A stretch of DNA of 64,000 nucleotides from an uncultured Clostridia bacterium (GTDB lineage Bacteria; Bacillota; Clostridia; Christensenellales; Borkfalkiaceae), in assembly GCA_947626105.1 (NCBI GenBank), contig CANQQY010000001.1, positions 62,001 through 126,000 on the forward strand, written 5' to 3'. The first letter of the stretch is position 1. The number at the start of each line of letters is the position of its first letter. Shown here in pieces: positions 2,630 through 32,950 of this stretch. The position numbers and the translations under genes are program-made. The notes below the pieces were generated by a model. It ran no database searches, was not told the DNA's origin, and saw only the letters and a program-made list of their open reading frames with translations.

Positions 2630-3469
2630 TTATTCGGCGATGAATAGCACGCCGAGCGTATTCCTGCCGCAATGCCCCGTGATGACGGAACCCGCGACCG
2701 TTTCGAGCACTTCGTCAAATTCGAAGAGCTCCTTGACCTGCGCCTTCGCGACGTCCACGAGCGCTTTGTCCGCGCTGCTGTGCGTGATAAAGGCGCGCCG
2801 CCTGTCGTAATTGGGATAGCGCACCGCGAGATCCTTGATATAAGCCGTGATGCACTTATCCATGTTCCCGCGATACTTCTTCCCGGGGACGAGCTGTCCG
2901 GCGTCCATCTCGATGAGCGGATGGATCTTCAAAATATTCGCGCCGTACATCGTCATGCGCGAACATCTCCCCCCCTTATAGAGATAATCCAGCCTGTCCG
3001 GGATAAAGGACGTATTGACGAGGGGGCGGAGCGCATTGACTTTTTCGACGATTTCCTGTGCGGAAGCGCCTTCCTGCATGAGATCCCATGCCTTCATGAC
3101 GAGGAGCCCCTGCCCCGAGGAGAGCGCCATGGTGTCTACAACGTACACCTTTTTCCCGAACTTCTTTGCCGCCGCAGACGCATATTGGTAGGAGGAAGAG
3201 GATTTTGCGGAGATGTTGAAATGGATGACTTTTTTCCCTTCGTCAACATATTTCTGAAAGAAATCCTCGTAGTCGCCGATGCTCGGCGCGGCAGTTTTCG
3301 GAAGTTTTCCCGTCTTTTGGACGAAATCGAAGATGTCCTGCGGGGTGATGTTTACCCCGTCGCGGTAGGAGTTTTCGCCGAGAATAACGGAGAGCGGCAT
3401 GATCTCGATGCCGCGCGATACCGCATTTTCCCCCAAATCGCATGTGCTGTCTGTCGTGATCTGTATCAT
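2630..3469 (-). CDS. DegV family fatty-acid-binding protein
   Basis: DegV/FakB-type protein of 279 residues. In the family these bind a fatty acid and present it to the FakA kinase. The N-terminus has the typical ITTDSTCDL phosphate-site segment, followed by the AAPS segment and the middle DRLDYLYKGGR segment. I place the start at 3469 (MIQITTD) because GGAGG sits 7 bp upstream and homologs begin here; a longer reading into upstream DNA would cross repeat sequence. A second DegV paralog is at 34521-35414. Its 5' side carries a composite structured element shared with asnS. No fakA is in the window. Confidence 0.93.
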   Translation of the reverse strand: MIQITTDSTCDLGENAVSRGIEIMPLSVILGENSYRDGVNITPQDIFDFVQKTGKLPKTAAPSIGDYEDFFQKYVDEGKKVIHFNISAKSSSSYQYASAAAKKFGKKVYVVDTMALSSGQGLLVMKAWDLMQEGASAQEIVEKVNALRPLVNTSFIPDRLDYLYKGGRCSRMTMYGANILKIHPLIEMDAGQLVPGKKYRGNMDKCITAYIKDLAVRYPNYDRRRAFITHSSADKALVDVAKAQVKELFEFDEVLETVAGSVITGHCGRNTLGVLFIAE

Positions 3470-3504: not shown

Positions 3505-3790
3505 ATGTTTCGCAAATTTCTTTGTTTTGAACGCCCTGCGGGCGGCATATCAAGGTCAAAGAAATTTGCGAGGGGTTCGTGCTTCTGCTTTGTAAAAGCG
3601 ATTCGGCCGCCCTCTCTGTTCCACACGACATCAAGCCGAAGGGGTTCGGCAAATTGAGTCGCCCTACTTCGCGCCCGAGATGTCTCGACTACGCTCGACA
3701 TGACAACGGGCGCTCGTGCCGCGCTTCGTGCAATAGAATGCGCGCGGGGCGGCGGAAGTAAATTCCGCCTAAGGCAAGTAATTTGGAACT
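3505..3790 (-). promoter_or_regulatory. Putative structured 5' leader / composite repeat, copy 1
   Basis: Read on the minus strand toward degV, this region has a terminal stem of two perfect 14-nt arms (3511-3524 and 3557-3570, CGCAAATTTCTTTG pairing with its complement). The stem encloses a small CGCCC-TGC-GGGCG hairpin (3532-3544). Further upstream comes a conserved block (3598-3664) and a GGCGGAA hairpin (3751-3768). The same order is found upstream of asnS (32501-32699), where the terminal stem has a different sequence but still pairs. Copy 1 has about 85 bp of extra repeat DNA inserted at 3665-3749. Function is unknown; it could be RNA or a mobile repeat. Confidence 0.5.
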
Positions 3791-4088
3791 CGCCCCACCC
3801 CCTTAGTCCGTTGCGGCGGCAGGGATCGCCGCAACCCCGTCGGCGAGGCCACGCCTCCTGTCGCGGCGTCCCTCACAGCCCATCGGGCTGTTGAGGCGAA
3901 TGACGCCGCTCCTCCCCCACGGAGGGGGCTACATGGCTCCTCCTTAGGAGGAGCTGTCACCGCAGGTGACTGAGGTGGGCATCTTGGCGCCCCTCTTAGG
4001 GGAGCTGGCGCGCTGCCCTTGCGCGACTGAGGGGTTTTGAAACCCTATCCCCCGCTACGCGGGTACTTCCCCTAAAAGGGGAAGCAAG
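3690..4088. repeat. Mosaic of dispersed repeats between degV and lepB
   Basis: This gap contains no supported gene. It holds a GTCTCGACTACGCTCGACATGAC-type inverted element, the tail of the composite leader element, the 109-bp repeat also found at 21513-21621, and a chain of CCCCT-AGGGG hairpins ending directly after lepB. A CTTCCCCT..AGGGGAAG hairpin at about 4067-4085 could act as a weak terminator for lepB, but it lacks a clear T-run on the minus strand. Confidence 0.75.
3808..3916. repeat. 109-bp dispersed repeat, copy A
   Basis: Matches 21513-21621 over its full length with three mismatches by eye. It contains several internal inverted repeats: GGCGGCAGGGAtCGCCGC, GGCGAGGCCacGCCTCC, and AGCCCatcGGGCT. 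A shorter, more diverged relative lies at about 18199-18258. It is not inside any gene. Confidence 0.85.
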
Positions 4089-17754: not shown

Positions 17755-18189
17755 GTGAAAAGAGTTCTTTCTGCCATTGCATCTTTTATTTTGTGCTGTG
17801 TTTTCCTTGCGGCTTTTGCGGCCTGTTCGGATAAAATTTCATCTATCAGGGATATAAAAAACTATTCCGATATGCAAAACCAAGCGGACAAAATCGACGT
17901 TGAGTTTGATAACGGCACACAGGACGGCTATTTATTCACAATTACCGACGAAGAAGAAATTGCCGAAATCATGAGCATCGTTTTCAATACTCCGATTTCC
18001 TACGGCGGCAAACGGAACGAAATTCCGCCTATGGGAAATACTTTTCTCACCATTTATCAAGGCGAAAAGACTTATACGCTCGGCCACCGTTTTATTACCG
18101 AGGGCGAAAACTATTATTTCTTCCAAACAAGTGAGCTTGCAGAAAAACTTGCTACGCTTGCTATGGCGTACGGCGCTTACGAAGCGTGA
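17755..18189 (+). CDS. Predicted small lipoprotein, unknown function
   Basis: A 144-residue secreted protein. A basic start and hydrophobic core (about residues 5-22) end in LAAFAAC, a lipobox-like site, so it is probably anchored to the outer face of the membrane. The mature part (about 120 residues) has no domain I recognise; the VEFDNGTQDGYLFTITDEEEIAEIMSIV segment looks like an alpha/beta stretch seen in small clostridial lipoproteins. I use the GTG at 17755 since AGGAGG is 7 bp upstream; an in-frame ATG at 17731 lies before that site. Confidence 0.82.
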   Translation: MKRVLSAIASFILCCVFLAAFAACSDKISSIRDIKNYSDMQNQADKIDVEFDNGTQDGYLFTITDEEEIAEIMSIVFNTPISYGGKRNEIPPMGNTFLTIYQGEKTYTLGHRFITEGENYYFFQTSELAEKLATLAMAYGAYEA

Positions 18190-31114: not shown

Positions 31115-32488
31115 TCACATAATATTCTTCACGCTGCGCGGGAATAGGGTGACGTCGCGAATGTTCTCCATGCCCGTGACGTACATCACAAACCGCTCGA
31201 AACCGAGCCCGAACCCGCCGTGCGGCACACTGCCGAAGAGGCGCAGATCGAGATATTGCTTGTAGGAAGCCATGTCCATTCCGCGCGCCTTCATCGCCGA
31301 GACGAGTTTCTCATAATCCGCCTCTCTCTCGCTGCCGCCGATGATCTCGCCGATCCCGGGCACAAGGCAGTCCGTCGCCGCGACCGTCTTGCCGTCGGGA
31401 TTCTGTTTCATATAGAAGGATTTGATCTCCTTGGGATAGTCCGTCACGAACACGGGACGCTTGAACACCTGCTCCGTGAGGTACTTTTCGTGTTCGGATT
31501 GGAGATCGCTCCCCCAGTGCACGGGGAATTGGAATTTTTCGTTCTCCTTTTCGAGAATGGCGACGGCGTCCGTATAGGTACAAACGCCGAAATCGCTCGT
31601 CGCGACATGGGTCAGCTTGTCGATGAGTCCCTTTTCCACAAAGGAATCGAAGAATTTGAGCTCCTCGGGGCACTCGGCGAGCACCGCTTTGATGAGATAT
31701 TTTAAGAGACTTTCCGCGATTTCGATGACGTCGGGAAGCTCCGCAAACGCGATCTCGGGTTCCACATGCCAGAATTCGGCAAGGTGCCGTTTGGTATTGG
31801 AATTTTCGGCGCGGAAGGAGGGTCCGAAGGTGTAGATCTTCCCGAGCGCCGTCGCCGCGACTTCGCCCTCAAGCTGTCCCGAGACCGAAAGCCCCGCTTT
31901 CACGCCGAAAAAGTCGTTCTTAAAGTACTCCTCTTCCGTTTTATATTCCGTTTTCCACGGCTGGGTGGTGACGCGGAACATCTCCCCCGCCCCCTCGCAG
32001 TCGCTCGCCGTAATGAGCGGCGTGTTGATATAGTAATATCCGTTTTCGTGGAAATAGCGGTGGATCGCCTGCGCCGCGACCGAGCGGACGCGGAACACGG
32101 CTTGGAAGGTGTTTGTGCGGAGCCTAAGATGCGGGATCCCGCGCAAAAAGTCGAGCGTCGTGCGCTTCTTTTGGATGGGATACTCCGCAGGGCACTTGCC
32201 GAGAAGAGCGACTTTAAGCGCGTTGAGTTCGTTCCCCTCTCCCTTATATGCCTTGACGACCCCGCCCTTGACGCACACGCTCGCGCCGAGCTTCAAGCAC
32301 TCGGGGTCGGGCTTCACCGACGATTTGTCGATGACGACTTGAAGTTTTTGAAAGGACGTACCGTCGGTGATCTCCAAAAAGGAGACGGCGGAAGAGTCGC
32401 GGAAGGTGCGCACCCAGCCGTAGACGACAACTTCCTGCCCCACGAGGGTATTGTCTTGCAATACTTTTGAAATATCGAGATGTTTCAT
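31115..32488 (-). CDS. asnS: Asparaginyl-tRNA synthetase
   Basis: Class IIb aminoacyl-tRNA synthetase, 457 residues. An OB-fold anticodon-binding domain covers residues 1-110 (VVVYGWVRTFRDSSAVSFLEITDG). The catalytic core has motif 2 FRAENSNTKRHLAEFWHVEPEIAF and motif 3 GFGLGFERFVMYV. The AsnRS-specific FLR/RTNTFQAVFRVRS region is clear, so it is not AspRS. AAGGAGTCATT precedes the ATG. The 5' side carries the second copy of the structured composite element. No T-box sequence was found in the leader. Confidence 0.96.
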   Translation of the reverse strand: MKHLDISKVLQDNTLVGQEVVVYGWVRTFRDSSAVSFLEITDGTSFQKLQVVIDKSSVKPDPECLKLGASVCVKGGVVKAYKGEGNELNALKVALLGKCPAEYPIQKKRTTLDFLRGIPHLRLRTNTFQAVFRVRSVAAQAIHRYFHENGYYYINTPLITASDCEGAGEMFRVTTQPWKTEYKTEEEYFKNDFFGVKAGLSVSGQLEGEVAATALGKIYTFGPSFRAENSNTKRHLAEFWHVEPEIAFAELPDVIEIAESLLKYLIKAVLAECPEELKFFDSFVEKGLIDKLTHVATSDFGVCTYTDAVAILEKENEKFQFPVHWGSDLQSEHEKYLTEQVFKRPVFVTDYPKEIKSFYMKQNPDGKTVAATDCLVPGIGEIIGGSEREADYEKLVSAMKARGMDMASYKQYLDLRLFGSVPHGGFGLGFERFVMYVTGMENIRDVTLFPRSVKNIM

Positions 32489-32500
32489 AATGACTCCTTT

Positions 32501-32699
32501 ATGTTTCGTTGAATTTCTTTTTTCGTCTGCGCCTTGGGGCGCATACTCAAAAACAATTCAACGAGGGGTTAAGTTTTTTGCCTTGTAGTTGCGATTCGGC
32601 CGCCACCTTTCTGTTTCACAGGACAGTAAGTCGAAAGGGTTCGGCAAATTGAGTCGCCCATGGCGGAAATGAATTCCGCCTAAGGCAAGTTATTTGGAA
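32501..32699 (-). promoter_or_regulatory. Putative structured 5' leader / composite repeat, copy 2
   Basis: Minus-strand element just upstream of asnS. The terminal stem uses CGTTGAATT (32507-32515) with AATTCAACG (32555-32563), enclosing TGCGCC-TTGG-GGCGCA (32528-32543). Flanks CCCCTCG and CGAAACAT are shared with copy 1 while the stem sequence is not, yet both pair. A conserved block at 32591-32659 and a GGCGGAA hairpin at 32662-32679 follow. The element ends about 13 bp before the asnS ATG. No classical T-box consensus. Confidence 0.5.
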
Positions 32700-32950
32700 G
32701 CGTGCCCACCTCAGTCACCTGCGGTGACAGCTCCTCCTTGGGAGGAGCCATGCCCCCTCCGTGGGAGGGGGACTAAGGGGGTGGGCAAGTCTTGGCTTCC
32801 CCTCGAGGGGAAGCCGAGAGTTGCCACTTGCTTCCCCTCGTAGGGGAAGTCCCCGAAGGGGGATAGGGTTTCCAAAAACCCCTCAGTCACGCAAGGGCGC
32901 GTGACAGCTCCCCTAAGAGGGGAGCCAAGGGGAAGCCAAGAGACTTCCGA
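32700..32950. repeat. Hairpin-repeat cluster between proS and asnS
   Basis: No gene is seen. Consecutive blocks CTCAGTCACCTGCGGTGACAG, CTCCTCCTTGGGAGGAG, CCCCTCCGTGGGAGGGG, CTTCCCCTCGAGGGGAAG and CCCCTAAGAGGGG run up to the proS stop. Confidence 0.75.

Follow-up and report, generated by a model that had tools for sequence, protein, structure and literature searches.

The window analyzed here, a 64,000-nucleotide stretch of the genome of an uncultured Clostridia bacterium, holds two copies of a folded, non-coding element on its minus strand, one upstream of degV and the other upstream of asnS (Table 1). The identities of DegV and AsnRS were confirmed by Pfam. A preliminary description of this DNA had reported the two copies at these places, with common flanks, a common block, an A hairpin, and a terminal stem that is perfect in each of them, with 14 bp in copy 1 and 9 bp in copy 2. 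All of these were verified, as was the extra repeat insertion in copy 1, given there as 85 bp and measured here as 86 nt. Both copies had also been said to end shortly before a start codon, and a ribosome-binding site indeed follows each of them closely. The sequence GGGCGACTCAATTTGCCGAACCC is present without mismatch in both copies but absent from the rest of the window (0 occurrences expected by chance), and the two copies were the only matches of covariance model R1 within the window. A third candidate, at 18021, was rejected because it matches in part only and the remainder of the element is missing there. When compared to shuffled sequences, the asnS copy folds far better (z -6.7, DNA), and so does the degV copy (z -4.5, RNA). 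Neither copy gave a credible Rfam match, at gathering or relaxed thresholds, in agreement with the earlier remark that no known riboswitch or T-box motif could be recognized.

Table 1. Positions in the window of the two element copies, their parts and the adjoining genes.
Feature	Position	Strand	Remarks
Element copy 1	3507..3788	-	upstream of degV; left end TTCCAAAT, right end CGAAAC
TTCC end, copy 1	3788	-	GAAACAT runs down to 3505
Hairpin A, copy 1	3751..3769	-	GGCGGAA/TTCCGCC
Palindromic insert, copy 1	3665..3750	-	from another repeat family
B module with hairpin P, copy 1	3569..3657	-	hairpin P 3650-3635; model R1 match 62.1 bits
Terminal hairpin C, copy 1	3511..3570	-	arm type GCAAATTTC; perfect stem 3570-3557/3524-3511
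degV	2630..3469	-	adjoins C end of copy 1; ATG 3469; PF02645, E 3.7e-67
Element copy 2	32503..32699	-	upstream of asnS; TTCC end at 32699
Hairpin A, copy 2	32662..32680	-	
B module with hairpin P, copy 2	32562..32652	-	hairpin P 32645-32630; model R1 match 59.2 bits
Terminal hairpin C, copy 2	32507..32563	-	arm type GTTGAATT; perfect stem 32563-32555/32515-32507; encloses GC hairpin
asnS	31115..32488	-	adjoins C end of copy 2; ATG 32488; PF00152, E 3.6e-68

The element measures about 200 bp and is composed of three hairpins (A, P and C) joined by short conserved stretches. Read in the direction of the preliminary description, a sharp left boundary with a TTCCAAAT-like/TTCCAAATNAC end comes first, followed by hairpin A, the motif CAATTTG and hairpin P. 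Then CTTANTGTC and a variable stretch, some 50 nt long, lead up to CTC and hairpin C, which holds a variable inner hairpin, and GAAA forms the right end. Hairpin A is most often GGCGGAA/TTCCGCC. Between TTC.AAAT and CTCAATTTG, however, unrelated hairpins often take its place or enlarge it (window positions 3665-3750; G000:C10:12055 and C27:10088 elsewhere in the same genome), which gives the impression of a site open to hairpins of any kind. In copy 1, the insert replaces the usual GT that separates hairpin A from GGGCGAC, and a related repeat is found at the corresponding place in other copies, the one at C10:12055 among them. Copies can moreover be joined end to end, GAAACA being directly followed by TTCCAAA, and such tandem joins also occur in a relative (G010). 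In the infA-rpmJ gap of another relative (L102, G006), three tandem copies stand directly 3' of the infA stop codon, their arms alternating between GTTAAATTC and GTGAAATTC types. No autonomous copy with an enclosed gene was found; a small number of long "inserts" resemble either fortuitous pairings or repeats of other kinds. The intergenic gaps of the genome are also filled with several further families of palindromic repeats (e.g., GCCCACCTCAGTCACCTGCGGTGACAGCTCCTCC...), which directly abut the A end of the element, as seen at window positions 32700-32900 and 3790-4000 and at all of the genome's own loci inspected. In relatives, these families likewise begin no more than about 10 nt from a stop codon.

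The genome that contains the window (G000) is a metagenome-assembled genome (MAG) of 1.64 Mb in 32 contigs, 94% complete. A BLAST search with copy 2 retrieved 87 pieces from it, a B-module query 45 places, and the covariance model at least 56 element matches, with at least two B subfamilies coexisting. The copies described earlier are thus both real, but they are far from being a mere pair. Searching related genomes with the model (E <= 0.01) detected the element in 57 of 81 genomes of the same genus, several of them with 50 or more copies, and, in a sample of the order, in none of the 98 genomes belonging to other genera, two of which are from the same family. In an exact-pattern scan of named genomes, the matches listed comprised only uncultured Clostridia MAGs of the "Lapin" series, while viral contigs contained no exact match to the hairpin-A pattern. 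As far as sampled, the element is confined to a single genus of uncultured gut Clostridia. Within G000 the identity between B sequences is 0.82, as compared to 0.66 between genomes. No description of the element was found in the open-access literature, although one may nevertheless exist.

Covariation was evaluated on 42 diverse units, hairpin P not having been chosen for pairing. In hairpin P, both partners had changed in four of the five pairs (in 8 to 17 sequences per pair), and the same held for all eight pairs in the arms of hairpin C. After sliding the partner by 1-3 columns, only 30-46% of cells were paired instead of 88%, and the covariation score was 0.06-0.15 instead of 0.60. As the C arms had been picked with pairing in mind, a pairing-blind control was run for this hairpin; an arm pair scoring 10 or more was present 3' of the core in 81% of cases in relatives, against 0.8% in dinucleotide-shuffled flanks. 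The preliminary proposal that pairing is kept despite sequence change thus holds genus-wide at hairpins P and C, and its suggestion of a hairpin recognized by an enzyme fits as well. Hairpin C exists in dozens of arm versions between constant TC/GA flanks, with at least 38 different outer-8 arm pairs. Moreover, whenever an extra base is present in this hairpin it is in the left (B-side) arm (22 arm types, against none in the right arm), although several bulged arm types are variants of one type, so that independent cases are fewer than 22. In G000, an identical B sequence occurs together with different arm types, several in number, which indicates that arms are also exchanged as whole hairpin modules. 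The left and right C arms do not match in a few copies (G000:C3:145354, C4:64621 and C1:192986), the second of them having GCAAATTTC on the left and GTTCATTTC on the right; these are probably recombinants or decayed copies. A further stem, TTGTC/GACAA in the variable stretch, was unsupported, as its pairs change on one side only.

We then considered the position of the element relative to genes, using 181 units from the genus and genes called by a simple codon-usage caller. No unit falls within a predicted gene. Of 170 cases, 133 have the C end turned towards a stop codon, and in 72 of these 133 it is only 0-9 nt away from it. Between genes on the same strand, the C end faces the stop of the upstream gene 80 times and the start of the downstream gene 18 times, so that the degV and asnS copies represent the minority orientation. 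The A end, on the other hand, practically never abuts a gene. In one relative (L043, G003), a reading frame entering the element seems to end inside the C arm (CGTTGA), and the repeat may thus supply the stop codon of a neighboring gene.

These data bear directly on the preliminary interpretation of the element as a cis-acting, riboswitch-like RNA leader of degV and asnS, which would account for the conserved structure and for both window copies ending shortly before a ribosome-binding site. We consider such a role very improbable, since copies adjoin many unrelated genes, mostly 3' of their stops and in the opposite sense, form tandem arrays and lack any Rfam match. In addition, position at asnS is not conserved: in none of the 26 relatives that could be read does an element face asnS, and several of them carry it 3' of the proS stop. 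Together with the minority orientation of the window copies, this makes a gene-specific leader unlikely. The same description had held that matches spread at random with respect to gene starts and orientation would make this an ordinary dispersed repeat; the element is a dispersed repeat by that rule, but its placement relative to genes is not random.

The infA-rpmJ gap is bare, with 43-87 nt, in 12 species, and in 10 others it carries an element just 3' of the infA stop, with differing arms. The infA copy of G000 shares 0.84 identity with other copies of its own genome, as compared to 0.60-0.72 with infA copies elsewhere. That one gene can have the element in one species and a bare gap in the next argues against a functional 3'-end element, in which hairpin C would be kept for ribosome stalling or release, mRNA stability or transcription end, and usefulness to the host would drive the spread. 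The closeness of the C end to stop codons and the 80:18 sense bias would suit such a role, which has parallels in the E. coli REPs that stall ribosomes when located within 15 nt of a stop codon (PMC12306157), and in the pneumococcal SPRITE repeats that cluster at gene 3' ends (PMC3049150). Nevertheless, about a fifth of the tandem-pair copies face start codons, tandem arrays leave many hairpins distant from the stop, hairpin C of the window copies is not followed by a T-run on either strand, and a terminator scan within these two elements flagged the A hairpin only, and not C. Overall, we regard this explanation as unlikely. By analogy, a REP-like effect of the element on the preceding gene is plausible, and a hairpin lodged 0-9 nt 3' of a stop may affect the translation or mRNA decay of that gene, as the E. 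coli REPs do.

Stop-codon placement could also be due to selection rather than to insertion preference. Were insertion random, in compact genomes with spacers of 10-90 nt where only the few bases behind the stop tolerate an insert, placement would simply be what selection leaves. In agreement with this, empty gaps are short (43-87 nt at infA-rpmJ; about 10 nt between proS and asnS in G002), and other repeat families likewise start close behind stops. However, selection of this kind leaves unexplained why it is the C end, and not the A end, that abuts the stop: with the A end towards a stop, the closest P start is at a distance of 73 nt, and only 1 of 39 is under 160. Part of this asymmetry could stem from other repeats having been inserted later at the A end. 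We consider selection alone an unlikely explanation. Orientation was also compared with GC skew in G000, where 30 of 39 own units had a negative skew on the A-to-C strand (20-kb stretches L254-L273), as did 8 of 9 in divergent or convergent gaps, counts that come from few independent loci and stand beside mixed genus-wide 8-kb data. Element orientation may be set by replication direction rather than by the gene, as would be expected of a lagging-strand mechanism.

A non-autonomous element would depend on an enzyme encoded elsewhere. No Y1 transposase (PF01797) was found in G000, a MAG that is 94% complete, and in the genus this family is present in 10 of the 44 genomes with the element and in 5 of the 17 without it; as far as these data go, RAYT/Y1 was rejected as the partner, being absent from G000 and uncorrelated with the element. 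Reverse transcriptases are sporadic (11 of 61 genomes) and equally uncorrelated, and tyrosine recombinases, in a count that lumps IntI with others, are universal in the genus and hence uninformative, so that neither points to the partner. It may also be that the enzyme gene is missing from the MAG assembly.

Altogether, we consider it probable that the element is a genus-restricted, non-autonomous element of the REP/BOX/MITE kind, whose folded terminal hairpin is recognized by an enzyme encoded elsewhere. This reading builds on the copy number, the sharp ends, the tandem joins, the presence or absence at one gap across species and the genome-specific versions, as well as on the conserved folding, the one-sided extra base of hairpin C and the C end lying 3' of stop codons. 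With its many copies and its changing but folded end hairpin, the element resembles a small hitch-hiking DNA element and not a gene switch. It would spread by copying, and hairpin C, with its constant TC/GA base, hypervariable palindrome and polarized bulge, would be the structure read by the enzyme, probably in single-stranded form; pairing would be kept because an unpaired version would escape recognition. No target duplication was seen, and flanks differ at the loci compared (infA-rpmJ and proS-asnS). As neither a target duplication nor a strain-level empty/filled pair was seen, recent transposition is something that we infer. A bolder proposal, which we advance tentatively and hold to be rather doubtful, is that the element moves as folded single-stranded DNA with the help of a class of enzymes so far not linked to repeats of this kind. 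Its palindromic address would be rewritten on both arms from one genome to the next, a bulge would mark the strand, and insertion would be aimed at the few bases 3' of stops.

The element thus provides dozens of naturally occurring versions of one hairpin, whose two arms have changed in concert and in which a one-sided bulge marks the strand. As a family without the usual REP transposase, it opens tests of how folding persists while the address changes, of what moves REP-like elements in the absence of a RAYT, and of why they settle directly 3' of stops. In practical terms, searches for leaders or promoters in genomes of this genus must mask it.

Among known systems, REPs are palindromes of 20-40 bp with a GTAG/CGTC tag and an imperfect, bulged stem, often no more than 15 nt away from a stop codon (PMC8266576, PMC12306157). 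Like the REP/REPIN sequences that go with RAYT (TnpA-REP), the element is a high-copy extragenic palindrome frequently near stop codons (181 units, none in genes, 72 within 0-9 nt), with an imperfect bulged stem and a short invariant motif next to a stem that varies from one genome to another. However, it has about 200 bp and three hairpins, its constant flanks are CTC/GAA(A) rather than the REP tag, so that it is not a REP palindrome, and it has neither a Y1 gene in G000 nor an association with one in the genus, as a RAYT system would. In its constant base, its hypervariable palindrome and its bulge on one side, hairpin C resembles the single-strand features read by TnpA-REP, IS200/IS605 transposases and integron integrases (PMC8266576, PMC2727003). 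Integron attC sites are similar in being folded single-strand hairpins with a one-side extrahelical base, in using a variable sequence as a recognition signal and in forming tandem arrays; unlike them, the element occupies many loci, without gene cassettes and without RYYYAAC/GTTRRRY core sites seen by eye.

The BOX and SPRITE repeats of Streptococcus pneumoniae are likewise non-coding, strongly folded and lineage-restricted, BOX being modular and SPRITE located at gene 3' ends (PMC3049150). Compared with the published description, the element shows neither the terminal inverted repeats nor the target duplications of BOX, and lacks the T-run terminator of SPRITE; in contrast to both, its terminal hairpin is at one end only and hypervariable. 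Classical MITEs are also non-autonomous and intergenic, with short sharp ends, but the ends of the element have only TTC/GAA in common and do not form long terminal inverted repeats, and it differs as well in the lack of a visible target duplication. Overall, the element is a genus-restricted, non-autonomous modular hairpin repeat of the REP/BOX/MITE kind, set apart by the absence of a RAYT, its polarized placement behind stops, the diversification of both arms and its one-sided bulge.
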